Assembly: GCF_022695985.1 (NCBI RefSeq)
Contig: NZ_JAAPBF010000008.1
Span: 1-64,000 of the forward strand
Length of the DNA stretch: 64,000 bases
DNA from: Streptomyces sp. NP-1717
GTDB taxonomy: Bacteria; Actinomycetota; Actinomycetes; Streptomycetales; Streptomycetaceae
Reading direction: 5' to 3'
Shown here: in pieces, positions 13-23,654 of the stretch
Position numbering within the stretch: position 1 is the first letter of the stretch
Layout of the letters: each line of letters starts with the position of its first letter
Made by a program: the position numbers and the translations under genes
Notes under the pieces: model-generated
What the model was told of the DNA's origin: nothing
The model's database searches: none
Seen by the model: the letters and a program-made list of their open reading frames with translations, nothing else

Positions 13-738
13 ATGAAGCAGGAAAAGACAACGCTCGACGCCCCACCGGCGCCGGTCGCCGCGGCCGCTCCCGCGGCGAGGCCGGCGGCACCCGTGCCGG
101 ATCCGTCCACCGGCCCCCGGGCCACCGAGCCGGCCATGCTGGGCTTCGGCGGATTCCTGCTCGGCTCCATCTCGCTCGCCTTCTACCTGAAGGACGTCAG
201 CATCCCGGCCAACTCCCTGGTGGCCTCCCTGCCCATCATGGTGTTCAGCAGCACCATCATGCTGCTGATGGCCTCGGTCTGGGCGATGCGCCTGGGCGAC
301 GGGATCTTCGCGGCCGTGTACGGGCTCTTCGGGACCTTCTGGCTGAGCTTCTCCATCCTCAGTCTCGCCCTGAACAACAACTGGATGGGCGAGTTCGAGA
401 ACATCGAACAACGCCAGGCCACCGCCAACTTCGTCCTGGTGTGGGCCATCGTGATCATCCTGTTGACGCTGACGACCCTGCGACTCCCGCGGATCTTCAC
501 GTTCCTCTTCGTGGTCGTCTCCACGACCCTGCTCGTTCTGTACGGCTCGATCGAGCAGGCCATCGACCAGATGGTCAACAACCCCACCAAGCCCGACGAC
601 CCGTGGCTGATCTACGTCGGCATCACGACGATGTTCCTCTTCATCGTGCTCGGCATGTACATCTTCGCCGCCTTCATGCACCAGGCGACCGGCGCCAAGC
701 GCCTTCCCCTGGGCAAGCCGCTGGTCAAGGGCCGCTGA
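13..738 (+). CDS. GPR1/FUN34/YaaH (SatP-like) acetate permease
   Basis: Predicted inner-membrane carrier of 241 residues for acetate or related small acids. After a Pro/Ala-rich, probably disordered N-terminus (residues 1-40), about six hydrophobic helices follow, with the charged tail KRLPLGKPLVKGR at the end. The first helix starts with EPAMLGFGGF, a degenerate form of the NPAPLG signature of the family. The final helix carries FAAFMHQATG, a position where family members usually have a comparable conserved stretch. An AGGAG ribosome-binding site lies directly upstream of the ATG. The gene sits 50 bp before the SfmD-like gene and probably shares its transcript, so it may supply a precursor to, or belong to the edge of, the biosynthetic cluster. 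Family assignment is fairly firm; substrate is inference. Confidence 0.75.
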   Translation: MKQEKTTLDAPPAPVAAAAPAARPAAPVPDPSTGPRATEPAMLGFGGFLLGSISLAFYLKDVSIPANSLVASLPIMVFSSTIMLLMASVWAMRLGDGIFAAVYGLFGTFWLSFSILSLALNNNWMGEFENIEQRQATANFVLVWAIVIILLTLTTLRLPRIFTFLFVVVSTTLLVLYGSIEQAIDQMVNNPTKPDDPWLIYVGITTMFLFIVLGMYIFAAFMHQATGAKRLPLGKPLVKGR

Positions 739-788: not shown

Positions 789-1841
789 ATGACCGACTAC
801 CTGCCCCACGTCGCCACCGTCCCCTTTCCCATGCCGCGGCCGGAGGATCTGCCCGTCGACGCCCCGGCGATCGCGGCGGCGGTCCCCACCGCCCTCGCGG
901 CGCCGGCCGCCCGGATGTCCGATCCGGCCGGCCGGACCGGGCTCGCCCAGCTGCTGGCCGCCACCGTGGCCGCCCGCGCCGAACTCGGCCCGGTGCCCAG
1001 CACCCTCGTCGGCGACGACCCGAAGGAGTCGCGGCCGAATCGGGACAACGACCTGGCGTTCGGCATCGAGCGGCACCACGGTGACCCGCTCGCCCTGTTC
1101 GCCGCGGCGCTCCTCAACGCCCAGCACGGCATCGTGGAGATCGCCGAGGAACGGGGGACCGGCCTCGACGAGGCCTCGTGGCACGACCTGCTCGCGGGCT
1201 TCGACGTACTGCTGCGCTGGCCGGCCGATCCCACCCGGCTGCCCGCGCCGCTGCCCGCGCCCGAGTGCCCGCGGTCCGGGAAGCCGGAACCCCTCGACGG
1301 GCTCCGCCGCTGGGTCCGCGGCCACCATGTGTTCATGGTGCTCGCGCAGGGCGGCACCCTCGCCGTGAACAGCCTGAGGGCGGCGGCCGAGGCGGGCGAC
1401 GAGGAGACCGCCGCCGCGGCGGCCGGCGTGGCCTCCCGGGTCATGTGGGCGTGCCGGGCCTCACTTCAGTTCGCCGGGGACGCCAGCCCCGACCAGTACC
1501 AGGCGGAGATCAGGCCCACCCTGATGCCGCCCGTCGCACCCCCGCAGATGAGCGGGCTGCGATGGCGGGACCACGAGGCCCTGGTCGCCGCGCTCACCGG
1601 GTCGAGCGACGCCTGGTCCTGGCTGGCCGAGCGCCGGCCCGGCCCGCTCGAAGACTTCCGGACCGCGCTCGACGCCACGTACGACGCGCACAAAGGCGTG
1701 TGCGGACACTTCGTCGGCAGACAGTCGCCGAGCCTGCTCGCGACCAGCCGGTCCCATCGTCCCGCGGTGGGTGTCATCGAGCAGTTCCACCGACTGCGGG
1801 CGGGCACCCTTCCCGCCGCTCCACTTCCCGACCACAACTGA
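789..1841 (+). CDS. SfmD-like heme 3-methyl-L-tyrosine hydroxylase
   Basis: 350 residues; start fixed by AGGAGG five bases upstream. The C-terminal half holds the signature of SfmD, the saframycin-pathway heme enzyme that hydroxylates 3-methyl-L-tyrosine with peroxide: a first His (H262, in RWRDHEAL), a second His exactly 39 residues later (H301) and a Cys four residues after that (C305, in AHKGVCGHF). As I recall, SfmD ligates heme by two histidines 39 residues apart and ties it to the Cys by one thioether. The spacing here is identical. The segment EQFHRLR near the end and the central LLNAQHGI fit a helical heme-dioxygenase-like fold. The next two genes encode the methyltransferases that act before and after this step in the known pathway, which strengthens the call. 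What cannot be seen is the actual substrate: tyrosine, 3-methyltyrosine or an analogue. Confidence 0.82.
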   Translation: MTDYLPHVATVPFPMPRPEDLPVDAPAIAAAVPTALAAPAARMSDPAGRTGLAQLLAATVAARAELGPVPSTLVGDDPKESRPNRDNDLAFGIERHHGDPLALFAAALLNAQHGIVEIAEERGTGLDEASWHDLLAGFDVLLRWPADPTRLPAPLPAPECPRSGKPEPLDGLRRWVRGHHVFMVLAQGGTLAVNSLRAAAEAGDEETAAAAAGVASRVMWACRASLQFAGDASPDQYQAEIRPTLMPPVAPPQMSGLRWRDHEALVAALTGSSDAWSWLAERRPGPLEDFRTALDATYDAHKGVCGHFVGRQSPSLLATSRSHRPAVGVIEQFHRLRAGTLPAAPLPDHN

Positions 1842-1939
1842 TCCCCAACGGCAACGGACTTCCTGACCACCACAGGTGTCGCGACCGCACACACCAGTGA
1901 CCGGCAGAGACCCATCCACATCCGAGAGGCAGGGCACTC

Positions 1940-3001
1940 ATGACCACCGCACCCACCCAGCACGGCGGGCCCATCGAGCTCGACATGGACGGCCTGTCCC
2001 GGATTCTCTTCGGGCATGCGGCTTTCCAGTACCTCAACGCGGCCTGTGAACTGGGCCTGCCGGACCTGGTCGCCGAGAAGCAGGAGCTGACCCGGGAAGA
2101 GATCCGCGACGCCCTGAGCCTTCAGGACCGCGCCGTCGACATCCTCCTCCTCGGCTGCACCTCGCTGGGCATCCTCGTCAAGCAGGACGGTCTGTACCGA
2201 CTGGCCGGGGTCGTCAAGGACCTCATGGACGAGGGCGACTGGCAGCGCTTCAAGGACACCGTCGCCTTCGAGCAGTACATCGTGTACGAGGGCCAGCTCG
2301 ACTTCACCGACTCGCTCCGCGAGAACCGCAACGTCGGTCTGCGCCGGGTCCGCGGCTCCGGCCGTGACCTCTACCACCGGCTCGCCGAGAACCCGCACAT
2401 GGAGCAGGTGTTCTACCGCTACATGCGGTCCTGGTCCGAGCTGGCCAACAAGCACCTCGTCCAGGAACTCGACCTCTCCGGCCGCAAGCACCTGCTGGAC
2501 TGCGGCGGCGGCGACGCGGTGAACGCCATCGCGCTCGCCCAGGCCAACCCGGACCTCAAGGTCACCGTCTTCGAGATCCCGGCCTCCGGCACCATAGCCG
2601 AGAAGAAGATCGCCCAGGCGGGGGTGAGCGACCAGGTCTCCGTCATCACCGGTGACATGTTCAGCGACGCGCTGCCCACCGGTCCCGACGTGGTGATGTT
2701 CGCCCACCAGATGGTCATCTGGACACCGGACGAGAACACCGAACTGCTCCGTCGCGCCTACGAGGTGCTGCCCGAAGGCGGTCAACTGGTCATCTTCAAC
2801 TCCATGTCCAACGACGAGGGTGACGGCCCGGTCGTCGCCGCGCTCGACAGCGTCTACTTCGCCGCGCTGCCGGCCGAGGGCGGCATGATCTACTCCTGGG
2901 CGACGCACGAGCGGTCCCTGCGCGCGGCCGGGTTCAGCACCCTCAAGCGCATCCCCTTCCCGGGCTGGACCCCGCACGGCGTCATCGTCGCCACCAAGTA
3001 G
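1940..3001 (+). CDS. SfmM2-like C-methyltransferase (tyrosine 3-methylation)
   Basis: 353 residues. N-terminal dimerisation/winged-helix region (about 1-110), then a class I SAM fold with motif I LLDCGGGDAVNA near residue 185 and the acidic loop VFEIPA after strand 2. This is the layout of the O-methyltransferase/CrtF superfamily. The usual catalytic His-Asp pair of O-methyltransferases (HxxHDW) is replaced by HQMVIWTPDE, which argues for C- rather than O-methylation. In saframycin biosynthesis SfmM2 makes 3-methyltyrosine for SfmD. Adjacency to an SfmD-like gene (98 bp) and to a second methyltransferase of the O-type suggests the same role here. The ATG at 1940 is preceded by a purine-rich AGAGGCAGGG. 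Family is clear; the specific reaction is inferred from context. Confidence 0.7.
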   Translation: MTTAPTQHGGPIELDMDGLSRILFGHAAFQYLNAACELGLPDLVAEKQELTREEIRDALSLQDRAVDILLLGCTSLGILVKQDGLYRLAGVVKDLMDEGDWQRFKDTVAFEQYIVYEGQLDFTDSLRENRNVGLRRVRGSGRDLYHRLAENPHMEQVFYRYMRSWSELANKHLVQELDLSGRKHLLDCGGGDAVNAIALAQANPDLKVTVFEIPASGTIAEKKIAQAGVSDQVSVITGDMFSDALPTGPDVVMFAHQMVIWTPDENTELLRRAYEVLPEGGQLVIFNSMSNDEGDGPVVAALDSVYFAALPAEGGMIYSWATHERSLRAAGFSTLKRIPFPGWTPHGVIVATK

Positions 3002-3015
3002 TTCCCCGTTCCAGC

Positions 3016-3056
3016 GGATCCCACCCGGCCGCCCGCGCGGCGGCCGGGCGGGATCC
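3016..3056 (+). terminator. GC-rich hairpin between the two methyltransferase genes
   Basis: Arms 3024-3033 and 3039-3048 (CCCGGCCGCC / GGCGGCCGGG) around the loop CGCGC. An outer GGATCCC/GGGATCC pair (3016-3022, 3050-3056) extends it. No T-run follows, so it could attenuate or stabilise the transcript rather than end it. Confidence 0.4.
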
Positions 3057-3093
3057 CGTCCCGTCCCACTCCTACGAACAAGGAGGTGACAGC

Positions 3094-4137
3094 GTGCTCA
3101 ACCCACAACTCCGGGACGACGCCGCACGGATGCGCATGCTGCTCTACGGCCAACTCGTGTCGAGGGCGGTCTGCACGGCGGTGAAGCTCGGCCTGCCGGA
3201 GGCGCTGGCCGGTGGCCCCCGCTCCGCCGAGGACCTCGCCGGAGAGGTGGCCGCCCACCCACTCGCCCTGCGCAGGCTGCTCCGCGCCCTCGTCCCCTTC
3301 GACGTCTTCACCGAAGAGACCGACGGCACCTTCCGACTGACCGAGCTCGGCGCCACCCTGCTGCCGGCCACCCCCGGTACGGCACGCCCCACCGCCATGC
3401 TGCTCGGCGGCGAAGTCGGCCGCACCTGGGGCGAGTTCGAACACACCGTCCGCACCGGCGACTCGGCGTTCCAGCTGATCCACGACTGCGAACTCTTCGA
3501 GCACCTGGAGCGGCGGCCCGAGCGGCGCGAGGTCTTCGACCGTTCCCAGGAGGCCGGGCTGCGCCTGGAACTCGACGAGATCTTCGAGGCCGTCACCTTC
3601 GACGGCTACCCGCGGATCGTGGACGTCGGCGGCGGCAACGGCCATCTCATGTGCGAACTGCTGCTGCGCACCCCGGGCAGCACCGGCGTCGTGGTGGACC
3701 TGCCCGGTACCGTCGCGCTCGCCGAGAAGCGGATCGTCGAGGGGAACCTCGTCGACCGTTGCACCGCCACCGCGGGAGACTTCTTCAGCTCCGTGACTCC
3801 GGGAGCGGACCTCTACATTCTCAGCCACATCCTGCACGACTGGGGTGACGACAGCGCGGTCTCGATCCTCCGTACCTGCGCCGCGGCCATGCCCCCGCAC
3901 GGGCGGATCATGGTGATCGACCTGCTCACCGACGCCGACTCGCCCGAAGGCGGACGACACCGGCTCCCCGCCCTGATGGACCTCTACATGCTCTCCCTCT
4001 TCGGGGCCTCCGGCGGTCGGGAGCGCACCACCGGGGAGTTCACCGCGCTGCTCGCCGCCGCCGGGCTGGAGCCGGCGGAGACCCTGGTGCTGCCCAGCGG
4101 CATGGCAGTCATCACGGCCCGTCCGCTCGCCGCCTGA
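3094..4137 (+). CDS. SfmM3-like O-methyltransferase
   Basis: 347 residues, GTG start behind a near-perfect AAGGAGGTGA. N-terminal winged-helix dimerisation domain (about 10-95) and C-terminal SAM-binding domain with motif I IVDVGGGNGHL (about residue 170) and the catalytic motif HILHDWGDD (about 245), in which the first His of HDW is the general base of this family. This contrasts with the preceding gene, where the motif is lost. In the saframycin and naphthyridinomycin pathways an enzyme of this kind methylates the phenol of 3-hydroxy-5-methyltyrosine or its precursor. Position directly after the SfmD- and SfmM2-like genes supports the same task. A different phenolic substrate is possible. 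Confidence 0.78.
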   Translation: MLNPQLRDDAARMRMLLYGQLVSRAVCTAVKLGLPEALAGGPRSAEDLAGEVAAHPLALRRLLRALVPFDVFTEETDGTFRLTELGATLLPATPGTARPTAMLLGGEVGRTWGEFEHTVRTGDSAFQLIHDCELFEHLERRPERREVFDRSQEAGLRLELDEIFEAVTFDGYPRIVDVGGGNGHLMCELLLRTPGSTGVVVDLPGTVALAEKRIVEGNLVDRCTATAGDFFSSVTPGADLYILSHILHDWGDDSAVSILRTCAAAMPPHGRIMVIDLLTDADSPEGGRHRLPALMDLYMLSLFGASGGRERTTGEFTALLAAAGLEPAETLVLPSGMAVITARPLAA

Positions 4138-4221: not shown

Positions 4222-5889
4222 ATGAGTCAAGACGCCACCTTCACCCCGCCCGAGCGTGCCGGAAAACGCGAATGGACAGCCCTCGGCGTCCTCGCCTTAC
4301 CGGCGCTGCTCATCACCCTCGACAACACGGTGCTGCACCTGGCGGTTCCGCATCTCAGCGCGAGCATCGACCCCAGCGGTCTGCAACTGCTCTGGATCGT
4401 CGACATCTACAGCTTCCTCATCGCCGGCCTGCTGATCATCGCGGGCACCCTCGGTGACCGGGTGGGGCGTCGTCGGCTGCTGTTGATCGGGGCGGCGGGC
4501 TTCGGATTGGCCTCACTGCTCACGGCGTTCTCCTCCAGCGCGGAGATGCTGATCGTCAGCCGGGCGCTGCTCGGTATCGCCGGGGCGACCCTCATGCCGT
4601 CCTCGATGTCGCTGATCCGCAACATGTTCGCCGACCCACGGCAGCGGTCCGTCGCCTTCAGCGTCTGGATCGCCTGCTTCCTGGTGGGCGGGGCGATCGG
4701 CCCCATGGTCGGCGGTGCGATGCTGGAACACTTCTGGTGGGGCTCCGTCTTCCTGCTGAGCGTGCCCGCGATGGTGCTGCTGCTGATCGTGGGGCCGGTG
4801 CTGCTCCCCGAGTACCGGGATCCGAACCCGGGCAGGATCGACCCCGCGAGCGTGCTGCTGCTGGTGACCTCCCTGCTCTCGACGGTCTACGGACTCAAGG
4901 TGCTCGCGGGTGAGGGTGTCGAGCCACTGCCGGTGGTGCTGCTCGTGGCCGGACTCGGGCTGGCCGTGGTCTTCGCCTCGCGCCAGCGACGTATCAGGCA
5001 TCCCCTGCTGGAGCCCGGACTGTTCCGCGAGCGCACCTTCGCCGTCTCCCTCGGCGCCATGGCCCTCGCCCTGTTCGTGATGTCGGGATCGCAGTTTTTC
5101 ATCGCGCAGTATCTGCAGATGGTGGTGGGTCTGTCCCCGCTGGAGACGGGTCTGTCCTCGCTGCCCGGGAGCGTCGGCGGCGTGGTCGGGGCCCTGTGCG
5201 CCCCGCTGGCGCTGCGGTGGATGCGGTCCGCGTACGTGATGACGGCAGGCCTGTCGATCGCCGTCGTCGGTTTCGCCGTGCTGACCCAGGTCCAGACGGA
5301 GAACGGACTGATCCCGGTGATGATCGCCCTGGGGCTGCTCAACTTCGGTGTGGCACCGACCATCGCGCTCGGTACCGACATGATGATCGCGTCCGCACCC
5401 CCGGAGAAGGCCGGGGCGGTCTCCGCGATCTCCGAGACGTGTCATGAACTCGGCCTGGGTATGGGCATCGCGATCCTCGGCAGCGTCGGGACCGCCGTGT
5501 ACCGCGGCGAGGTCTCCGGCACATTGCCCGAAGGGCTGCCCGCCGACGCGGCGTCGCGCGTCCAGGACACGATCGGTTCGGCCGTGTACGAGGCCGGACG
5601 GCTGCCCGGTGAGCTGGGCACGGTCGTTCTCGACGCCGCCCGGGCGGCCTTCACCGACGCCCTGTTCTACGTCAGCGTGATCTGTACGGTGGTCACCCTG
5701 CTGACCGTGATCACGGTCGCGGTACTGCTGGGTCCGCTGTCCAAGGACGGCGGTCACGGCGGCGGTGAGGGCGATGGCGGTGACGGCACCGCCGGGGGCA
5801 CCGCTTCCGACGAGCCCTTGGAGACGGCCGACCCGCGCATGGCTGATTACCGCCGACAGGCGGCGGCACCGGAGGACCGGGCGCACTGA
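4222..5889 (+). CDS. DHA2-type MFS drug exporter (EmrB/QacA family), copy 1
   Basis: 555 residues with about 14 hydrophobic segments and a Gly/Asp-rich hydrophilic tail. Motif A of the major facilitator superfamily is visible as GDRVGRRRLLLIG (about residues 76-88). Motif C of the antiporters is present as the VGGAIGPMVGG stretch in helix 5, and D34 in helix 1 (LITLDNTVL) matches motif D1 of the 14-TM QacA group. It probably expels the cluster's product or an intermediate by proton antiport and gives self-resistance. Its closest relative in the window is the convergently placed exporter at 9.3-11.0 kb, with which it shares long identical stretches. It ends in a strong hairpin, so it closes the first operon. 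Confidence 0.85.
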   Translation: MSQDATFTPPERAGKREWTALGVLALPALLITLDNTVLHLAVPHLSASIDPSGLQLLWIVDIYSFLIAGLLIIAGTLGDRVGRRRLLLIGAAGFGLASLLTAFSSSAEMLIVSRALLGIAGATLMPSSMSLIRNMFADPRQRSVAFSVWIACFLVGGAIGPMVGGAMLEHFWWGSVFLLSVPAMVLLLIVGPVLLPEYRDPNPGRIDPASVLLLVTSLLSTVYGLKVLAGEGVEPLPVVLLVAGLGLAVVFASRQRRIRHPLLEPGLFRERTFAVSLGAMALALFVMSGSQFFIAQYLQMVVGLSPLETGLSSLPGSVGGVVGALCAPLALRWMRSAYVMTAGLSIAVVGFAVLTQVQTENGLIPVMIALGLLNFGVAPTIALGTDMMIASAPPEKAGAVSAISETCHELGLGMGIAILGSVGTAVYRGEVSGTLPEGLPADAASRVQDTIGSAVYEAGRLPGELGTVVLDAARAAFTDALFYVSVICTVVTLLTVITVAVLLGPLSKDGGHGGGEGDGGDGTAGGTASDEPLETADPRMADYRRQAAAPEDRAH

Positions 5890-5917: not shown

Positions 5918-6359
5918 ACGGCGCCTGTGCGGTCGCCGCCCGAAAGTCGGCCGCATCGACCATCACGACGGTCCGCGCATTGCGGCCTCGGACCGCTCCC
6001 GCCCTGCCGGGGACTACGGGACAGCTCTTAGGGTCACAACACCGATGGGTCAAGGGCGAATTCTCGACGATGTGCCGCTCGGTCTCCTTGTCCGGGAATG
6101 GAAGTCGGATTCCGCGTAAGCCCTTGCGAATCCCATGGCCACAGCGGGAGTTGCTCTCCCATGCGCATCACCGGAACGCTGAAACAACTCGCGTCCGCGG
6201 AGTCAACTTGACCCCAACATTCCACTTACACAGAGAGATCCAATAATCGTTTCATTTCCAACGTCATGCCATAAGCTTCCGATCGGCTGATGCCGGACCA
6301 GTCGGCGGATGGCCAAGATCAACTGTGCTCCGTTCCAGTACATGCGAGGAGTCGCGTAC
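5918..6359. other. Intergenic region upstream of the exported oxidase
   Basis: 442 bp without a convincing gene. Base composition falls towards the oxidase start (for example around 6240-6300), as expected for a promoter region. No clear -35/-10 pair or operator could be fixed by eye. Confidence 0.4.
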
Positions 6360-7979
6360 ATGTCTGAATTGAACCGCCGTGGGTTACTTACTCGTGCCGC
6401 ACTCGCCGGGGCCGGCCTGGTCGCGGCGGATGCCTTAGTAGGCGCTCGGCCCGCGACCGCGGCGGGGAGGGGGACGACGAGCGGACCATGCACTCCGGCG
6501 TTCGACTCCGTCACCATAAAGCCCGGGGACTCCCGCTACGAGAGCTTCGTGCGCGCGCACAACACCCGCTTCACCAACCGCCCCGACCAGGTGACCATCG
6601 CGACCACCCCGGCCCATGTCGCCGAGGCGCTCGGCAAGGCCGTCGCGGCCGGCCGGCAGGTCACCGTCCGCTCCGGCGGCCACTGCCTGGAGAACTTCAC
6701 CACGTGGTCCGGGGTCAAGGACCTCATCGACCTCTCGCAGATGACGGACGTCTACTTCGACGAGCGGCGCAGGGCCTTCGCCGTGGGGCCGGGCGCGATC
6801 GTGGCCCCGACGCAGAACACGCTCTTCAAGGGCTGGGGCGTCACCATTCCCTCCGCGGGCTGCTCGGAGGTGGGCCTCGGCGGGCACATACTCGGCGGCG
6901 GCTACAACTTCTACTCGCGCATCCACGGCATCGCCGTCGACCACCTCTACGCCGTCGAGGTCGTCGTGGTGGGCGCCGACGGACAGCCCCGCATCGTCGT
7001 GGCGACGCGCGAGGCCAACGACCCCAACCGGGACCTGTGGTGGGCGCACACGGGCGGCGGAGGCGGCAACTTCGGCGTGGTCACGCGGTACTGGATGCGT
7101 ACGCCGGGAGTGGACACCGCCGACCCCACCAAGCTCCTTCCCCGTGGCTCCGATCAGCGGACCCGTACGGTGCAGTGGTCGTGGGACACCCTGTCGCAGC
7201 AGTCGTTCACCACACTCATCCGCAACTACTGCCAGTGGTACGAGCGCAACAGCGCCCCCGGGGCGAAGGAGGTCCAGGTATGGGCGTCCTTCTCCGCCTC
7301 GCACGTGTCGGCCGGCGTGATCGGCCTGATGGCCGGTGTCTCCAAGTCGGTCGAGGGCGGCGAGGCCATGCTCGACGGGCTGTTCGACGCGGTCACCGCC
7401 GGTGCCGGCGTCACGCCCGCGACGGACTCCAGGTCCGAACTGGCGTGGATCGACCGGGACAACTGGTTCTGGGGTCCTCCCGGCCGCCAGAAGGACAAGA
7501 CCTCGGATCTGAAGAAGAGTTACACCGATGAGCAGATAGCGACGATCTACCGCTATCTCCACGACGACTCCATCAGCAATCCCGGTGCACAGGTGAACCT
7601 GGCCGCCCTCGGCGGCAAGATCAACAGCGTGAGCGCCGACGCGACCGCCTATGTGCACCGCGACTCCATCCTGCGCACCTACTTCACCCCCGGTGTGTGG
7701 CGGGCGGAGGCGGACGACGCCGCGCACGTGGCCTGGGTGCGCAAGTGCTACCGGGACGTCTACAAGCGGACCGGCGGTGTTCCGGTGCCCGACGCGATCA
7801 ACGCGGGCGCCTACATCAACTATCCGGACGTCGACCTCGCCGACCCGGAGTGGAACACCTCCAACACGCCGTGGCACGGGCTGTATTACGGCGCGAACTA
7901 CGCGCGTCTGCAGCGGATCAAGAGGGCCTACGACCCCCGCGAGGTGTTCCGCCACCCGCTGTCGATCCGCCCCAGCTGA
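6360..7979 (+). CDS. Exported berberine-bridge-type FAD oxidase (NapU/SfmCy2-like role)
   Basis: 539 residues from the ATG that follows GAGGAG. The N-terminus (LNRRGLLTRAALAGAGLVAA...ATAAG) is a twin-arginine signal peptide, so the folded flavoprotein is exported. FAD_binding_4 domain: RSGGHC with H108 as the 8-alpha-histidyl anchor, and GCSEVGLGGHILGGG with C168 as the likely 6-S-cysteinyl anchor, that is, bicovalent FAD. The C-terminal BBE domain ends with NYARLQRIKRAYDPREVFRHPLS. In saframycin and naphthyridinomycin producers, secreted FAD-linked oxidoreductases (SfmCy2, NapU) act on the exported, matured product. This gene beside an SfmD-like cassette fits that job. The Tat export and the FAD anchors are seen; the substrate is inferred. 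Confidence 0.8.
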   Translation: MSELNRRGLLTRAALAGAGLVAADALVGARPATAAGRGTTSGPCTPAFDSVTIKPGDSRYESFVRAHNTRFTNRPDQVTIATTPAHVAEALGKAVAAGRQVTVRSGGHCLENFTTWSGVKDLIDLSQMTDVYFDERRRAFAVGPGAIVAPTQNTLFKGWGVTIPSAGCSEVGLGGHILGGGYNFYSRIHGIAVDHLYAVEVVVVGADGQPRIVVATREANDPNRDLWWAHTGGGGGNFGVVTRYWMRTPGVDTADPTKLLPRGSDQRTRTVQWSWDTLSQQSFTTLIRNYCQWYERNSAPGAKEVQVWASFSASHVSAGVIGLMAGVSKSVEGGEAMLDGLFDAVTAGAGVTPATDSRSELAWIDRDNWFWGPPGRQKDKTSDLKKSYTDEQIATIYRYLHDDSISNPGAQVNLAALGGKINSVSADATAYVHRDSILRTYFTPGVWRAEADDAAHVAWVRKCYRDVYKRTGGVPVPDAINAGAYINYPDVDLADPEWNTSNTPWHGLYYGANYARLQRIKRAYDPREVFRHPLSIRPS

Positions 7980-8041: not shown

Positions 8042-8405
8042 TCGTACGCACCGGCAGTCCGCTCCTGTGGGAAGAGATCCGGCACGGGAACGGCGGAGCT
8101 GCGCGGCGGACGGCGGAAACGGGCCAGGGTCCTGTGTGCCGGGACTCGGGAAAGCCGGAAAAGTGGCCCCATTCCACCACGCTGACCTGCGCTTCTCATG
8201 CGGACCGGCCCGACCGGGGCTGATTCGGACCGCCTTGACACCCCCCACCGGTCATGAGTTTGTTTACGCGTCCTAGCAAGATTTCGACCACCCCGGAGAA
8301 AGCTCCCGGCCCCGCTCTCGCACAGTGGCCGCCATGGCCTCTGTCGTGGCCCGGCCGGTCGAGCGACCGGGGCCAAGGGTGTCGCAGACACGACAGGGAG
8401 ATCGA
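8042..8405. other. Intergenic region with possible promoter for the methyltransferase
   Basis: 364 bp without a convincing gene. TTGACA at 8235-8240 could be a -35 box; the matching -10 is poor (TTTGTT after 18 bp). Nothing else stands out. Confidence 0.3.
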
Positions 8406-9248
8406 ATGGCTGCCGAGATGTCCGGCGTTGACGATGTCGCGAGTTTCTACGAAGGTCTCGGTCAGGTTCTCAACGCCGCCTGGGGTGAGAACCTGCACTA
8501 CGGCTACTGGGAGGACGACAGCGACGACAGCGCCGTCGAGGTCGCCACTGCCCGGCTGACCGACCTGCTGGTCACCCTGCTCGATCCCGCGCCCGGCGCG
8601 GCGGTCCTCGACATCGGTTGCGGTGTGGGCAAACCGGCGCTCCAGCTCGTCGCGACCAGGGACGTACACGTCACCGGCATCGCCATCAGCGACGTCGAGG
8701 TGGAGCAGGCCGCCGAGCGCGCCAAGGAGGCGGGCCGGTCGGACGTGACCACCTTCCGGAACGCCGACGTGATGGAACTGCCCTTCGCCGACGGCTCGTT
8801 CGACGGCGCCTGGGCGGTCGAGTCGCTGCTCCACGTGCCGGACCGGGGCCGGGCGCTCGCCGAGACGGCCAGGGTGCTGCGCCCCGGCGGACGGCTGGTG
8901 ATCGCCGACACCGCCGAGATTCCGCCGTTGGGTCCCGACGGCCGTGCGGTACTCGACGACATCTGCGCCTCCTACGGCGTGAGTTCGTTCGCCACCGCCG
9001 CCGAGTACCTCGAACTGCTCACCGCCCACGGGTTCGTCGATGTCGAGGTGCGTGACATCAGCGACAACGTGGTCCGGACAGGGGCGATCATGGCCGACGT
9101 CGTCGAGGCCCGGCGCGACGAACTGGCCAAGATCGACGGGCCGGAACCGGTCGACCAGTACATCGGCCTCATGCGCCGCGCGGCGGCCAACCCGAACATC
9201 GGGTACCTCGTGGTAGCCGCGACGCTGGGCCCCGCGTCCGGCTCCTGA
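8406..9248 (+). CDS. SAM-dependent methyltransferase (SfmM1-like or glycine/sarcosine N-MT type)
   Basis: 280 residues, ATG preceded by ACAGGGAGA. A single class I methyltransferase domain: motif I VLDIGCGVGKPAL (about 63-75), then DVMELPFADGSFDGAWAVESLLHV, and ARVLRPGGRLVIAD. The opening region (FYEGLGQVLNAAWGENLHYGYWED) is the substrate-lid helix typical of the RebM/PhzM-like and sarcosine/dimethylglycine N-methyltransferases and of small-molecule N-methyltransferases in antibiotic clusters. Saframycin producers carry an N-methyltransferase (SfmM1) that would fit, but assignment of the acceptor from sequence alone is not possible. It converges with exporter copy 2 across a shared terminator. 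Confidence 0.7.
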   Translation: MAAEMSGVDDVASFYEGLGQVLNAAWGENLHYGYWEDDSDDSAVEVATARLTDLLVTLLDPAPGAAVLDIGCGVGKPALQLVATRDVHVTGIAISDVEVEQAAERAKEAGRSDVTTFRNADVMELPFADGSFDGAWAVESLLHVPDRGRALAETARVLRPGGRLVIADTAEIPPLGPDGRAVLDDICASYGVSSFATAAEYLELLTAHGFVDVEVRDISDNVVRTGAIMADVVEARRDELAKIDGPEPVDQYIGLMRRAAANPNIGYLVVAATLGPASGS

Positions 9249-9323: not shown

Positions 9324-10973
9324 TCAGTCGGTGGTGCGGCCGCCGGCTTCCTGCAACTCCCCTGACGCCCCGTCGGCCTTGCCGAACTGCTCCGGCTGCC
9401 CCGGCCCTTCGGATTCCCCGGCCCCTTCGGACTCCCCGGGCCCGGCGAGCGCGGGAACCTTGCGCAGACCCAGCGTCATGAACGCGGTCAGCAAGGTCAG
9501 TACGCCGCAAGCGACGCTCACCAGCACCAGACTGTGCGTGAACGCCTCCCGAGCCACATCCAGGGCCGCCGTGGCCAGACCCTCCGGCAGCCGGGAGATC
9601 TCGTCGACCGCGTTGCCGATGCTGTCCTTGATACTCGCGGCCGCCCCCTCGGACAGCCCGGCGGGCAGTTCGCCGGAGACCTGATCGCGGTAGACCGCGC
9701 CGCCCACACTGCCGAGCACGGCGATGCCCAGGCCCAGGCCCAGTTCATGAGAGGTGTCCGAGATGGCGGAGACCGCTCCGGCCTTCTCCGGCGGCGCGGA
9801 GTTGAGCATCATGTCGGTGCCGAGCACAACGGTGGGACTGACGCCGACGTTCAGCAGCCCCAGCGCGACCATCACCGTGGCCGGCCCGCTGTCGGCACCG
9901 GCCTGGGCCAGGACCACGAAACCGGCCCCGGCGACGGCGAGGCCCGCCGTCATCACGTACGACGCGCGCATCCACCGCAGCGCCACCGGGGCGAGCAGCG
10001 ACCCGGCCACACCACCGAGACTGCCCGGCAGCGACGCCAACCCGGCCTCCAGCGGCGACAGTCCCACCACCATCTGCAAGTACTGCGCGATGAAGAACTG
10101 CGAACCCGACATCACGAAGAGGGCGAGCCCCATCGAGCCGAGGGACGCGGAGAAGGTGCGCTCGCGGAACAGAGCCATGTCGATCAGCGGATGGGTGAGC
10201 CCGCGCTGGCGCAGGACGAAGAGCACGCCCAGCGCCAGACCGGCCAGGAGGACCAGTGCGGGGACGGCCGCGACGCCTTCGACGGCGAGCTTCTTGAGGC
10301 CGTAGACACTGGCGAGCAGGGAGAGCACGAGAAGGCCCATGCTCGCGAAGTCGATGGTGCCCGGCCTGGGGTCGCGGTACTCGGGGAGCAGTACGGGCCC
10401 GAGGATCAGCAGGAGCACCATGGCCGGCACGCTCAGCAGGAAGACCGAGCCCCACCAGAAGTGTTCCAGCATCACGCCACCGACGAGCGGGCCGATGGCG
10501 CCGCCCACCAGGAAGCACGTTATCCAGACGCTGAGGGCCACGGTCCGCTGCCGCGCGTCGTGGAACAGATTGCGGATCAGCGACATCGAGGAAGGCGTCA
10601 ATGTCGCCCCGGCTATGCCGAGGAGCGCACGGCTGACGATCAGCATCTCGGCACTGTTGGAGAACGCGGTCAGCAGCGAGGCGACACCGAAGCCCACCGC
10701 GCCGATCAGCAGCAGCCGCCGGCGCCCGACCCGGTCGCCCAGCGTCCCCGCGATTATCAGCAGACTGGCTATCAGGAAGCTGTAGATGTCGACGGCCCAC
10801 AGCAGTTGCAGACCGCTCGGGTTCAGGCTGGCGTTCAGGTGCGGTACGGCGAGGTGCAGCACCGTGTTGTCGAGGGTGATGAGCATGGCCGGCAGGGAGA
10901 GGACGCCGAGAGCCGTCCATTCGCGTCTTCCGGCGCGGGCGGGGGAGGGCGCGGTCGATTCTTGTTCAGTCAT
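9324..10973 (-). CDS. DHA2-type MFS drug exporter (EmrB/QacA family), copy 2
   Basis: 549 residues, about 14 membrane segments. Same motifs as copy 1 (GDRVGRRRLLLIG; LITLDNTVLHLAVPHL; VGGAIGPLVGG), and near-identical segments such as SGSQFFIAQYLQMVVGLSPL. The tail is Gly/Glu/Pro-rich and differs from that of copy 1. The two genes are clearly paralogous and face opposite ways around the oxidase and methyltransferase genes, pointing to a duplication inside the cluster. Likely a second exporter for product or shunt metabolites. No good Shine-Dalgarno precedes the ATG at 10973, so a different start is possible. Confidence 0.83.
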   Translation of the reverse strand: MTEQESTAPSPARAGRREWTALGVLSLPAMLITLDNTVLHLAVPHLNASLNPSGLQLLWAVDIYSFLIASLLIIAGTLGDRVGRRRLLLIGAVGFGVASLLTAFSNSAEMLIVSRALLGIAGATLTPSSMSLIRNLFHDARQRTVALSVWITCFLVGGAIGPLVGGVMLEHFWWGSVFLLSVPAMVLLLILGPVLLPEYRDPRPGTIDFASMGLLVLSLLASVYGLKKLAVEGVAAVPALVLLAGLALGVLFVLRQRGLTHPLIDMALFRERTFSASLGSMGLALFVMSGSQFFIAQYLQMVVGLSPLEAGLASLPGSLGGVAGSLLAPVALRWMRASYVMTAGLAVAGAGFVVLAQAGADSGPATVMVALGLLNVGVSPTVVLGTDMMLNSAPPEKAGAVSAISDTSHELGLGLGIAVLGSVGGAVYRDQVSGELPAGLSEGAAASIKDSIGNAVDEISRLPEGLATAALDVAREAFTHSLVLVSVACGVLTLLTAFMTLGLRKVPALAGPGESEGAGESEGPGQPEQFGKADGASGELQEAGGRTTD

Positions 10974-11169: not shown

Positions 11170-12105
11170 TCACCGGTAGCCGGAGGCGTCCGCCGGCTTG
11201 CCGGTCTCCTCGACCTCGACCAGGTAACGCCAGCAGTCGGGGCGCGAGCCGTCGAGGTCGGTGAAGCCGTACTCCTGCGCGAGTTGCCCGCTGGACACCG
11301 ACTCGCCGTTCCAGCGCGCGACGTCGGCGTCGCCGGCCAGCGCCGCGACCGCGCGTCCGACGTACGCCGGGCTCTCCGAGATGCAGAAGTGCGGCACCTC
11401 GGTCAGCGCGTCGCGCCAGGTGTCCTCGGTGACGCCGAGCGTGTCGAGCATCATCTCCGAACGCATCCAGCCGGGGCTGAGCGCCACCGCCGTCCCGCCG
11501 TGCGGCTTCAGCTCGTGGGCGAGCACGAACGCCATGCGCAGCACGCTGTTCTTGACGAGGTCGTAGAAGTACGAGTTGCGGTAGCGCGTCCCGTTGTACG
11601 CGGACGTTCCGTCGGTCATCTCGATCACCAGGCCGCCCGGCCGGCGCACGAGCAGCGGCAGTACGAAGTGGCTGGTGATCGCGTGGGTCGCCACGCCCAG
11701 CCGCATCAGCCGCAGTCCGTTGTCGAGGTCGTGCTCCCAGACCGGCTTGTCGAACTCGAACAGCCGCTCCCCGCCCCAGACATCGTTGACCAGCACATCG
11801 ACCCGCCCCTGCTCGGCGTCGATGCGCTCGGCCAGCGCACGGACCTGGTCGGGCTCCAAGTGGTCGGTCGGCACCGCGATGCCGGTTCCGCCCGCGGCCG
11901 TGACGAGGTCCGCGGTGTCCTCGATCGTCTCGGCCCGGTTGTACTCCGAGCGCCGTTCCCTCGTCGTACGGCCGGTGACGTAGACCGTCGCACCCGCCGC
12001 GCCGAGCTGGACGGCGATGGCGCGCCCGGCTCCCCGCGTCGCACCCGCGACCAGCGCGACCTTTCCGCTCAGGTCCGGTGCCGAAGTGTCGGGATTGAGT
12101 GTCAT
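11170..12105 (-). CDS. Short-chain dehydrogenase/reductase
   Basis: 311 residues. N-terminal NAD(P)-binding motif ALVAGATRGAGRAIA (TGxxxGxG type; the first Gly-rich position is Ala-Gly), an R-rich stretch TGRTTRERRSE after strand 2 that favours NADP(H), and the active-site pair YDLVK (YxxxK) preceded by a Ser/Thr-rich strand. The C-terminal extension (about residues 255-311, DGSRPDCWRYLVE) is longer than in a minimal SDR. It is the last gene on the minus strand before the exporter, 196 bp away, so it may or may not belong to the antibiotic cluster. Substrate unknown. Confidence 0.72.
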   Translation of the reverse strand: MTLNPDTSAPDLSGKVALVAGATRGAGRAIAVQLGAAGATVYVTGRTTRERRSEYNRAETIEDTADLVTAAGGTGIAVPTDHLEPDQVRALAERIDAEQGRVDVLVNDVWGGERLFEFDKPVWEHDLDNGLRLMRLGVATHAITSHFVLPLLVRRPGGLVIEMTDGTSAYNGTRYRNSYFYDLVKNSVLRMAFVLAHELKPHGGTAVALSPGWMRSEMMLDTLGVTEDTWRDALTEVPHFCISESPAYVGRAVAALAGDADVARWNGESVSSGQLAQEYGFTDLDGSRPDCWRYLVEVEETGKPADASGYR

Positions 12106-20065: not shown

Positions 20066-20805
20066 GACGTTGCTCCTGTCTCGTTCGCGTGCCCCTTGAA
20101 CGAGATGGGGCCCCGATTGCTGACAGGTGCCGTGCGTGACGCGGAACACAGTCCTTCAGCCGGGGCCGCACCGATCTGACGTCGACGATCCGCTCGCGGA
20201 CCGCACGGACGGCTCGTCAAATTCGTGGTCGTCATTCACATGCGTGGACAAGTTAAGGATTCCAGGAGGCTAGGTCAAGTGCCTTGAGGGTTCCGGAAGT
20301 TCTTCGGTTCGAAGCGTTGACGAACCTTGCGGGCAGCTCTAGCTTCATCGCGTCGTACTTCGTACGTCAGATATGAGACGCGATACACGAGGTGAGAGCT
20401 CTTCGCCCATGCCTTCTGCGCCTGCTCCGACCCCGCCCCGACCCCCTGTCGCCGGTGACTCCACGGCCGCCGCGGAACACGTCGACGCCGCGCCCGAGGA
20501 GGGCGGGGGCATGGCCCTGGCGAGACTTGGCCTTCGTCCGGTCCGGCCGCGACGATCAGAAGACCGAGGCCCTGGGCTGTGGCACCGACCCGTACGCCAC
20601 TCGGTACAAGCACCTGCGCCCATACGTGACGGGCGCAGCCGGTGCTCGTCACCTCCGCCGAGGACCGCCGGTTCGCCGCCGACCGGGGCCCGGGGCAGTG
20701 AATCGCCCGGTCCGGGCCCCTCCGACAGGGCGCCGCGTACCCGCGGCCGGCACTCCTCGCCTCTTACCTCTCCTCTTGCTCCCCGATTACAGAGAAGGAT
20801 TCGCC
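20066..20805. other. Long divergent intergenic region
   Basis: 740 bp between the divergent flavoprotein and pectate lyase genes. Open frames exist on both strands but have skewed Arg/Pro composition and no recognisable domain. An AT-richer patch at 20215-20270 could hold promoters. No operator matching the AAGCGCTT core was found. Confidence 0.35.
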
Positions 20806-22137
20806 ATGCCCGCACACATGCGTCACTCCATCGCCGTGGCCGTGGGCTGCGCATCGCTGGCCGTCGCCATGAGCGTCCCTGCCCAGGCCGCGCCGCACCC
20901 GCGCCAACAAGGAGCGGGCGCCGAGCGGGCCGTACTGCCCGACAAAGACGGCTGGGCCGCCGCCGAGGGCTCCACGACGGGCGGTGCCGACGCCACTGCC
21001 GACCGCGTCTACACAGTGACCGACCGGGCCGGACTCATCGCGGCCTTCGCCGATGCCGGCGACGCACCGAAGATCGTCAGGATCTCCGGCACCGTCCACG
21101 GCAACTCCGACGCCTCGGGCACCCCGATCGGCTGCGAGCAGTACCAGACCGACGGTTACACGCTGGAGAAATACCTCGCCGCCTACGACCCCGAGGTCTG
21201 GGGCCGGGACACGCTCCCCTCGGGCCCGCTGGAGGACGCCCGCGCGGCCTCCGCGAAGCTGCAGGCGGCCACCGTCAACATCAAGGTCCCCTCCAACACC
21301 ACCCTGATCGGAGTGGGGAAGGACCCGAAGATCATCGGGGCCGGGCTTCAGTTGACACACGTCTCCAACGTCATCATCCGCAACATCAGCTTCGAGGACA
21401 CCTACGACTGCTTCCCCCAGTGGGACCCCACGGACGGGGAGAAAGGCGCCTGGAACTCGGAGTACGACAACCTCGTCGTGTACGGCTCCCGCCATGTCTG
21501 GGTCGACCACAACACCTTCAGCGACGGCGGACGCCCCGACGCCGACCAGCCTCACTACTTCGGCCAGGTGTATCAGCAGCACGACGGCCTCTTCGACGTC
21601 GTGCGCGGCGCCGACCTGGTCACCGTCTCGTGGAACGTCCTCAAGGACCACGACAAGACCATGCTCATCGGCAACAGCGACGGCGCCGGGGCGACCGACC
21701 GGGGCAAGCTCCGCGTCACGCTCCACCACAACCTCTTCAAGGACGTCAAGGAGCGGGCCCCGCGCGTCCGTTTCGGCCAGGTCGACTCGTACAACAACCA
21801 CTTCGTCGCGACGCCGGGCAGCGCCTACGGCTACACGTACGGCATCGGTGCCGAGTCCCAACTGGTCGCCGAACACAACGCGTTCACGCTCGCGCGGCAG
21901 GTGGACCGGGCGACGGTCCTGAAGAAGTGGTCGGAGTCCTCGCTCACGGCGCGGAACAACTACGTCAACGGACGGAAGACCGACCTGATCGCCGTGCACA
22001 ACGCGGGCGTGCCCGGCGAGCACCTCACCGAGGGCGCGGGCTGGACACCCCACCTGCGGCCGACGGTCCACCATCCGCTCGCCGTGCCGGCGCTCGTGGC
22101 GCTCAAGGCCGGGGCGGGCGAGGCGACCAGGCGGTGA
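20806..22137 (+). CDS. Secreted pectate lyase, PL1 family (copy 1)
   Basis: 443 residues, ATG after GAAGGA. Sec signal peptide to about residue 27 (AVAMSVPAQA). Right-handed beta-helix with PL1 marks: the turn VIIRNISFED, the calcium-site segment VWVDHNTFSDG, HDGLFDVVRGAD and the catalytic Arg region ERAPRVRFGQVDSYNNHF (R-x-P-x-x-R-x-G type). It cleaves polygalacturonate by beta-elimination outside the cell and needs Ca2+. Longer than average PL1 enzymes because of an insert around residues 105-150 (YQTDGYTLEKYLAAYDPEVWG). First of three pectinase genes in a row on this strand. Confidence 0.88.
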   Translation: MPAHMRHSIAVAVGCASLAVAMSVPAQAAPHPRQQGAGAERAVLPDKDGWAAAEGSTTGGADATADRVYTVTDRAGLIAAFADAGDAPKIVRISGTVHGNSDASGTPIGCEQYQTDGYTLEKYLAAYDPEVWGRDTLPSGPLEDARAASAKLQAATVNIKVPSNTTLIGVGKDPKIIGAGLQLTHVSNVIIRNISFEDTYDCFPQWDPTDGEKGAWNSEYDNLVVYGSRHVWVDHNTFSDGGRPDADQPHYFGQVYQQHDGLFDVVRGADLVTVSWNVLKDHDKTMLIGNSDGAGATDRGKLRVTLHHNLFKDVKERAPRVRFGQVDSYNNHFVATPGSAYGYTYGIGAESQLVAEHNAFTLARQVDRATVLKKWSESSLTARNNYVNGRKTDLIAVHNAGVPGEHLTEGAGWTPHLRPTVHHPLAVPALVALKAGAGEATRR

Positions 22138-22151
22138 GAGAGTCCTACAGG

Positions 22152-22169
22152 TGTTCATGATGATGAACA
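22152..22169. promoter_or_regulatory. Palindrome upstream of the PL9 promoter
   Basis: TGTTCAT-GATG-ATGAACA, perfect 7-bp arms, 20 bp upstream of the -35 box. Looks like a second operator or activator site; the regulator is unknown. Confidence 0.5.
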
Positions 22170-22188
22170 GAAATCATGTACGCGGATA

Positions 22189-22217
22189 TTGACGTGTCCA
22201 TGTAAAGCTCTTAACGT
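22189..22217 (+). promoter_or_regulatory. Promoter of the PL9 pectate lyase gene
   Basis: -35 TTGACG (22189-22194), 17-bp spacer, -10 TAACGT (22212-22217). Good match to the principal (HrdB) consensus. Transcription should start near 22224. Confidence 0.65.
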
Positions 22218-22225
22218 TCCCCGCA

Positions 22226-22237
22226 GTAAGCGCTTTC
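22226..22237. promoter_or_regulatory. LacI-type operator at the PL9 start site
   Basis: GTAAGCGCTTTC around the perfect core AAGCGCTT, directly over the expected transcription start. Repressor binding here would block initiation. Shares its core with the site before the GH43 gene. Confidence 0.6.
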
Positions 22238-22288
22238 TCCAGTACCTCCCACCGAGTCCTGACCAGACCGAAACCACCTGGAGACACG

Positions 22289-23482
22289 ATGCGAGTAAGA
22301 CCACTCACCGCGTGCGTCGGCCTGCTGGCCGGAACGCTGTTCACTCTCTCCGGCACCACGGCGCAGGCCACGTCCGTACCTCACGCGGCGCCGTCCGCCG
22401 CCGCGCTGTACGTGTCACCGAACGGCAGCGACGGCGCGTCCGGCACGGAGTCCGCCCCGACGACGCTCACCTCGGCGATCGACCGGATAGCTCCCGGCGG
22501 GACGATTCATCTGCGGGGCGGTACGTACCGCTACTCGCAGACGGTCACCATTCCGCAGGGCACCGACGGCACCTCGGGCGACCGCACCGAACTGACCGCC
22601 TACCCGGGCGAGAGGCCGGTGCTGAACTTCGCGGCCCAGTCGGAGAGTTCGTCGAACCGCGGGCTCGCGGTCAACGGGTCGTACTGGCACGTCCGGGGGA
22701 TCGTCGTCGAGCACGCCGGCGACAACGGCATCTTCGTCGGCGGCAGCGGCAACGTAATCGAGCGCACGGTGACGCGCTTCAACCGCGACACCGGGCTTCA
22801 GCTCTCGCGTACGACCTCCGACACGCCCCGCGACCAGTGGCCGTCCAACAACCTGATCCTGAGCGCGGAGTCGCACGACAACGCCGACTCCGACGGTGAG
22901 GACGCCGACGGATTCGCAGCCAAGCTCACCTCCGGCCCCGGCAACGTCTTCCGCCACGCCGTGTCCCACAACAACATCGACGACGGCTGGGACCTCTACA
23001 CGAAGTCGGATACGGGAGCGATCGGCGCGGTGACCATCGAGGACTCACTCGCCTACGAGAACGGCACCCTCTCCGACGGCACCCAGAACTCCAGCGGAGA
23101 CCGTAACGGCTACAAGCTCGGTGGTGAGGACATCAAGGTCAACCACGTTGTCCGGCGCAGCATCGCCTACGACAACGGCAAGCACGGGTTCACCTACAAC
23201 CGGAACCCGGGCACGATGACGCTCTCGGAGAACGTCAGCATCGACAACGCCGAGCGCAACTTCTCCTTCGACGCCGGTACTTCGGTGTTCCGCGGCAACA
23301 TCTCGTGCCGCGGCGGCGACGGGTCCAACGACAAGACCGTGGGCAACGCCGACGGATCGAACCAGTTCTGGACCGGCTCGAACGGATCGCGGTGTTCCGC
23401 GTACACCGGTGCCCTGGACTGGGCCTTCGCCACGGACGGCCGCCTCGTGGTGACCTTCGGCGGAAACCGGGTCACCCGGTAA
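22289..23482 (+). CDS. Secreted pectate lyase/exopolygalacturonate lyase, PL9 family
   Basis: 397 residues. Signal peptide to about residue 27 (TAQA). DUF1565-like start YVSPNGSDGASGT, then parallel beta-helix coils. The PL9 catalytic region is clear: the acidic calcium cluster DNADSDGEDADGFAAK (about 197-212), NNIDDGWDLYTK, and K276 in NGYKLGGEDIKVNH at the position of the catalytic lysine. It acts extracellularly on polygalacturonate. Promoter, LacI-type operator and an upstream palindrome are all visible before it, so it is transcribed separately from the PL1 gene in front. Confidence 0.87.
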   Translation: MRVRPLTACVGLLAGTLFTLSGTTAQATSVPHAAPSAAALYVSPNGSDGASGTESAPTTLTSAIDRIAPGGTIHLRGGTYRYSQTVTIPQGTDGTSGDRTELTAYPGERPVLNFAAQSESSSNRGLAVNGSYWHVRGIVVEHAGDNGIFVGGSGNVIERTVTRFNRDTGLQLSRTTSDTPRDQWPSNNLILSAESHDNADSDGEDADGFAAKLTSGPGNVFRHAVSHNNIDDGWDLYTKSDTGAIGAVTIEDSLAYENGTLSDGTQNSSGDRNGYKLGGEDIKVNHVVRRSIAYDNGKHGFTYNRNPGTMTLSENVSIDNAERNFSFDAGTSVFRGNISCRGGDGSNDKTVGNADGSNQFWTGSNGSRCSAYTGALDWAFATDGRLVVTFGGNRVTR

Positions 23483-23654
23483 TCGGTCCTCCCCGCAGCG
23501 CGGATCCCGCCGCCGGCAACGGAAACGCGCATCGGTGCCCACGGCCTCGGCCGCGGTACCGACAACCACGGAGACCCAGGCTGATCAAGGCCGCGGCGGC
23601 GACCGCGGCCTGTAGCCACAACACCCGCGTGCAAAGACGAAAGTTGAGGCGAAA

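Follow-up and report, generated by a model that had tools for sequence, protein, structure and literature searches.

The first 12 kb of a Streptomyces sp. NP-1717 contig as the probable right half of a naphthyridinomycin-type tetrahydroisoquinoline gene cluster

The window analysed here comprises the first 64,000 nucleotides of contig NZ_JAAPBF010000008.1 of Streptomyces sp. NP-1717 (C439 below; G, C and L numbers denote genomes, contigs and loci), base 1 of the contig being window position 1, with no sequence readable further left. Positions 1 to about 12,200 very probably (we estimate 95%) represent the right half of a naphthyridinomycin-type tetrahydroisoquinoline (THIQ) cluster, including a cassette predicted to make 3-hydroxy-5-methyl-O-methyltyrosine. 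THIQ compounds alkylate DNA and include the approved anticancer drug ET-743. A preliminary description of the raw sequence had read three consecutive forward-strand open reading frames as look-alikes of SfmD, SfmM2 and SfmM3, and predicted a THIQ-type antibiotic. The three frames are present as described (Table 1), independent evidence bears the reading out, and the cluster can be named more precisely, its class being that of naphthyridinomycin and not of saframycin. This kind of cluster is already known and its pathway already described; the present case is one more strain, useful as another likely THIQ producer.

Compared with all PDB chains, the 350-residue product of the first frame has a sole match up to E 10, the 3-methyl-L-tyrosine peroxygenase SfmD (6vdp), so that its best match does not lie in an unrelated heme-free family. 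The alignment covers residues 2-346, with 181 of 345 positions identical (52.5%, E 4.7e-103), which excludes a chance match. His262, His301 and Cys305, singled out beforehand for their likeness to SfmD, align with residues 274, 313 and 317 of the 6vdp chain, with the 39-residue His-His spacing and the HxxxC pattern. We take the two histidines to be the heme ligands and Cys305 to be the thioether cysteine. SfmD reportedly has a bis-His heme with a single thioether, and the same is predicted for the window protein by analogy. Scans of Pfam and NCBIfam returned no family for it, so that both libraries are uninformative on this protein either way.

The two following genes encode methyltransferases that differ at the catalytic motif, as had been noted from the raw sequence. 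The C-methyltransferase (C-MT) reads FAHQMVIW where the O-methyltransferase (O-MT) reads SHILHDW, VIW thereby replacing the HDW that the O-MT keeps at residues 248-250. The best PDB match of the C-MT is SibL (4qvg), with 154 of 337 residues identical (45.7%) and the runner-up at 89 bits; no chain named SfmM2 occurs among the best 60 of its 73 PDB matches. Of 13 homologous loci, 12 conserve VIW; the remaining one, L025, has 26% identity and encodes an ordinary HDW enzyme. The O-MT, too, is an ordinary HDW-bearing O-methyltransferase, whose best solved relatives, 6c5b and CalO6, score about 220 bits. Counterparts of the C-MT in L018, L020 and L021 are 72-73% identical to it; the O-MT query matched only the C-MT in L018 and L020, and the L019 stretch has an O-MT and no match to the C-MT. 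SfmM2 C-methylates L-tyrosine (PMC13109631, in part; we use this mark where a statement rests on part of its source), and the published path leads from tyrosine through C-methylation, oxidation and O-methylation to 3-hydroxy-5-methyl-O-methyltyrosine (PMC9570651, in part). An SfmD-like gene adjoining genes for a VIW C-MT and an HDW O-MT is consistent with this path, and the trio proposed for a tyrosine unit stands.

The cassette genes also co-occur within the genus. C-MT relatives, counted at E 1e-60 or better, were found in 36 of 392 genus genomes (NP-1717 included), eight of them at 93% identity or more, and all eight carry an SfmD gene at 81% or more. In a genus sample of 101 genomes, any SfmD match is found in eight, and one of about 90% or more only in NP-1717 and G044. 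Since genomes and loci overlap (for example, G132 with L011 and G142 with L012, at the same coordinates), these counts are not independent.

Two relatives with both halves on one contig place the cassette in a cluster. In G044, a single contig contains the same nine genes in the same order at 83-96% identity, following a nonribosomal peptide synthetase (NRPS) of 3116 residues with three condensation-adenylation-peptidyl carrier protein (C-A-PCP) modules and no reductase. Further left in G044 are counterparts of NapH, I, J, L, M and N, a Streptomyces antibiotic regulatory protein (SARP), a transketolase/lipoyl protein, a ketoacyl synthase III (KAS III) and a UvrA-like protein. The NapH-to-NapP run of G044 has the order of the counterparts tabulated for the dnacin B1 cluster (din) of Actinosynnema (PMC7570522, in part). 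This order is also a likeness to the naphthyridinomycin (nap) cluster of Streptomyces lusitanus NRRL 8034, with which gene-by-gene identity was measured for NapW only. The dnacin table holds counterparts of NapP, NapU, NapI, NapJ and NapO, although that cluster is built on p-aminophenylalanine, unlike the tyrosine unit here (PMC7570522, in part). In G344, also a single contig, eight genes are 91-98% identical to those of the window, with NapP at 95%, and the region is colinear with both contigs of NP-1717 discussed here (DNA identity is 90-95% in the main blocks and 86% in a single outlying block of C312). We take G344, whose SfmD gene is at 7026552, to be Streptomyces niveus SCSIO 3406, where cluster 25 (6975232-7045695) lies unsplit on one contig and is entered as naphthyridinomycin, 92%, in an antiSMASH table (PMC7987185, in part). 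Genome-directed work on that strain yielded eleven THIQ-like aclidinomycins (PMC9268379, in part). A probable naphthyridinomycin-like cluster is described for strain HM190 (locus L010; PMC7333363, in part), and naphthyridinomycin was detected by mass in five Indonesian strains with the cluster (PMC8227522, in part).

The short-chain dehydrogenase/reductase (SDR) at the right end of the gene set points to the same class, being 87.7% identical to NapW (7bsx), a self-resistance enzyme that acts by reducing naphthyridinomycin at its hemiaminal warhead (PMC8648761). Residue 165 of the SDR is an Asp and corresponds to the catalytic position if the 7bsx chain has a 20-residue tag. Relatives of NapW are also found outside such clusters (homW at 75% and SlvW1 of S. 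lividans at 74% identity to NapW; PMC8648761), so that the SDR by itself would say little about class; the 87.7% measured here exceeds both figures.

The left half would lie on another contig of NP-1717, C312 (44,406 bases), which was found with the NapJ and NapI counterparts of G044 as queries (94% and 93% identical). It carries counterparts of NapH, L, M and N at 85-90%, genes for E1, transketolase/lipoyl, KAS III, SARP and UvrA-like proteins and, by family, counterparts of the ketose-unit proteins NapB, NapD and NapE, of the NapI dioxygenase and of the UvrA-like NapR1. Apart from short breaks, C312 and G044 are colinear all the way from the UvrA-like gene to the final base of C312, which falls inside napO at residue 176, the NapN, NapL and NapJ counterparts being present. 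Its genes are open frames 74-95% like those of G044 (a 105-residue frame at 81%). The first base of the window corresponds to 65 bases past the napO stop in G044 and 64 in G344, and the gap between C312 and C439 amounts to 8,888 bases in G044 terms and 8,860 in G344 terms, all inside napO. Thus the NRPS genes looked for to the left of the cassette stand directly there in G044 and G344 and, in NP-1717, across a contig break in napO; the assembly seems to split one cluster into two partial ones. Of the small NRPS contigs considered for the missing part (C15, C60, C253 and C290), none fits, identities being 49% at most. On C312, NapL (L049:12646-16455) comprises condensation and carrier domains; its adenylation part is barely recognised by Pfam (18.9 bits) in G044, and no AMP-binding match up to E 0.01 was found for it in NP-1717. 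NapH (L049:4186-6747) is a free-standing adenylation protein, and next to the degenerate adenylation part of NapL it likely indicates loading in trans. Elsewhere in the genome, contig C112 has NRPS frames of 5465 and 6331 residues at about 36-86 kb, which belong to another cluster, and at 30.5 kb it encodes a protein that shares 40% identity with the NapI counterpart.

A saframycin-type cluster, in which an SfmC-like NRPS joins two tyrosine units, would account for the SfmD and C-MT genes equally, these being common to both kinds. The SfmD-like proteins of L015 and L016 (67-68%) are even nearer to the window protein than SfmD is, and their genes follow a reading frame some 1470 residues long, which in L015 ends in a reductase (C-A-PCP-RE) as in the saframycin-like locus L020. 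Yet the SfmD-like protein of L020 itself, at 550 bits against 6vdp, is only 53% identical to ours, and its gene directly follows the C-A-PCP-RE NRPS and precedes an M28 peptidase gene, whereas in the window a NapP-like gene precedes the SfmD gene in the order (NapO)-NapP-SfmD-C-MT-O-MT-MFS-NapU-NapV-MFS-NapW, where MFS denotes a major facilitator superfamily exporter. NapP has no match in L015, L016 or L018-L021, C312 carries ketose-unit and NapI-like genes, and the NapJ adenylation stretch reads FDASGGGLYW against FDPSVWAVFW of the L020 type. The saframycin cassette of S. lavendulae is alike in its SfmD (52.5% identity, same triad) and, as judged from L020, differs in neighbourhood and NRPS architecture; in view of gene order, the 53% identity to L020 and the NRPS features, filing under saframycin was rejected, and we regard it as extremely unlikely. 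A sibiromycin-like pathway, in which the C-MT would act like SibL on 3-hydroxykynurenine, has a practically negligible probability. SibL is the nearest solved relative at 45.7% and shares the family and the VIW motif, but belongs to another pathway; the window enzyme is 72% identical to the C-MT of L020 and 72-96% to those of 12 loci that also have an SfmD gene, and genomes with relatives at about 45-53% mostly lack that gene. As its genomic company differs and the best 60 of its 73 PDB matches include no SfmM2 chain that could have ranked nearer, a sibiromycin-type assignment of the C-MT was rejected.

It is also very unlikely that the window holds a broken remnant, a right half kept without a working NRPS. 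In favour of such a remnant, napO beyond residue 176 is on no contig of the NP-1717 assembly, where other matches are 49% identical at most, and L012 is a relative with cluster parts missing or moved. Against it, both contigs end at napO, and napO of G044 contains three 300-base repeats that are 87-95% alike; as repeats are a usual cause of breaks in short-read assemblies, they are a likely reason for this one. The remaining genes are open frames as well, those of the window being 83-98% like their G044 and G344 counterparts.

Several points count against the naphthyridinomycin-type assignment or narrow it. The H/H/C triad is conserved in 20 of 20 other distinct loci aligned (L023 and L032, one place, counted once), six of them only 29-41% identical; on these alignments it is a mark of a wider family and not specific to SfmD, and as distant loci keep it, its use as proof of SfmD was dropped. 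Among the 28 genomes with C-MT relatives at 36-72%, SfmD matches at E 0.001 are lacking in 25, the exceptions being G278 (53%) and G200 and G163 (both 31%); such C-MT relatives are thus common without SfmD, and it is the cassette, not the C-MT alone, that is diagnostic. Because L015 and L016 reach 67-68% without NapP, L015 with a reductase-ending NRPS, percent identity by itself fails to tell the two kinds of cluster apart, and because the NapJ stretch is unlike the L020 type, any choice of NRPS protein as loader of the tyrosine unit would be tentative. The names SfmM2 and SfmM3 follow from family, motif and gene company rather than direct sequence comparison, as do NapU from BBE (berberine bridge enzyme) family and a twin-arginine stretch, and NapV from methyltransferase family and the place beside NapU; these identities are accordingly putative. 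Locus L012 (SfmD 82%, C-MT 94%) matches NapP, SfmD, C-MT and O-MT, but L012:1-15980, which runs 10 kb beyond the SfmD gene, has no matches to MFS, NapU, NapV or NapW, so that the right-hand gene set is not invariable. We infer the order C312-napO-C439 from two relatives, about 8.9 kb of napO being absent from the assembly. Finally, naphthyridinomycin, aclidinomycin and bioxalomycin are indistinguishable on the basis of these genes.

By analogy with characterised relatives, from which we infer activities, step order, contig joining and product, the SfmM2-like enzyme would methylate L-tyrosine at ring carbon 3, hydroxylation of the other ortho carbon would fall to the SfmD-like heme enzyme, and the SfmM3-like enzyme would methylate the phenol oxygen. 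The NRPS genes of the left half would then join this tyrosine unit to two others, a two-carbon unit from a ketose and a unit that comes from arginine or ornithine, the last presumably being the concern of the NapI-type dioxygenase. The reactive iminium may be reduced inside the cell by the NapW-like SDR, the harmless form exported by an MFS pump, and the product re-oxidised outside by the NapU-like flavoprotein. That the product is an undescribed naphthyridinomycin or aclidinomycin congener, with NapP, which is kept next to the NRPS in clusters of this type, serving specifically in THIQ export or maturation at the membrane, is a speculative and rather doubtful proposal.

Table 1. Genes predicted in the cluster part of the window
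Feature	Position	Strand	Evidence
NapP-like membrane protein, GPR1/FUN34/YaaH family	13..738	+	Pfam PF01184 E 4.7e-14
SfmD-like heme protein, predicted 3-methyltyrosine hydroxylase (His262, His301, Cys305), 350 aa	789..1841	+	6vdp SfmD 348 bits
SfmM2-like tyrosine C-methyltransferase, 353 aa, VIW in place of HDW	1940..3001	+	SibL 4qvg 335 bits; PF00891 E 1e-27
SfmM3-like O-methyltransferase, 347 aa, HDW kept	3094..4137	+	Pfam Methyltransf_2 E 6.1e-40
MFS exporter, DHA2 type, QepA/LfrA-like	4222..5889	+	Pfam and NCBIfam (below NCBIfam cut-offs)
NapU-like BBE flavoprotein, predicted secreted, twin-arginine N-terminal NRRGLLTRAALAGAG	6309..7979	+	Pfam FAD_binding_4 and BBE
NapV-like methyltransferase, probable N-methylation	8325..9248	+	NCBIfam best match and position beside NapU
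Second MFS exporter	9324..10973	-	Pfam; 70% identical to first MFS
NapW-like SDR, predicted self-resistance imine reductase	11170..12105	-	7bsx NapW 625 bits, 271/309 identical

Among the genes flanking the cassette, the first takes the name NapP from its position after NapO and from the dnacin table, where the NapP counterpart is a hypothetical protein (PMC7570522, in part). The NapP-like protein, whose GPR1/FUN34/YaaH family is one of acetate transporters, is matched by tblastn beside the SfmD gene in seven distinct loci of naphthyridinomycin type, and among the matches listed in a literature search on this family and naphthyridinomycin, none mentions naphthyridinomycin. The first MFS exporter is also matched in seven distinct loci. 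The second, on the opposite strand, is present in G044 and G344, and no separate copy was found within the stretches L009-L011, L013, L014 and L017; it is perhaps a recent extra exporter. NapU is a BBE-like oxidase, secreted by the twin-arginine (Tat) route, whose extracellular action turns the prodrug into its active form (PMC11375781, in part), and the probable N-methylation by the NapV-like protein follows the role given for NapV (PMC7570522, in part). The best NCBIfam match of the NapV-like protein is sarcosine/dimethylglycine N-methyltransferase, at 92 bits and below the cut-off of 550. In L017, NapU-, NapV- and NapW-like genes are found on the opposite strand, the NapW match reaching only 55%.

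L025, L026, L027, L028 and L029 encode distant relatives of the SfmD-like protein (29-34%) in which the triad is preserved. The surroundings of the L025 gene (L036) include an HDW methyltransferase, an FAD-binding protein and a Rieske oxygenase, with no NRPS among six genes scanned. In G085 (L035:1-20000), an SfmD-like protein at 41-44% is encoded directly behind a reductase-ending NRPS with the SfmC-like stretch FDPSVWATFW, near genes for a tryptophan-halogenase-like protein and a BBE flavoprotein; matches to the C-MT and O-MT are absent from the 20 kb examined of this 39.8 kb contig. This locus is possibly a different, halogenated relative.

DNA similarity of the window to G044 and G344 stops at about 12204, which sets the right border of the cluster just past the NapW-like SDR. 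To the right of this border, the window has genes for an isochorismatase, a sigma factor and pectate lyases, and G044 has an APH-type and a TAP-like protein. Three consecutive genes at 20392-24761, outside the cluster, encode a beta-helix protein and two pectate lyases.

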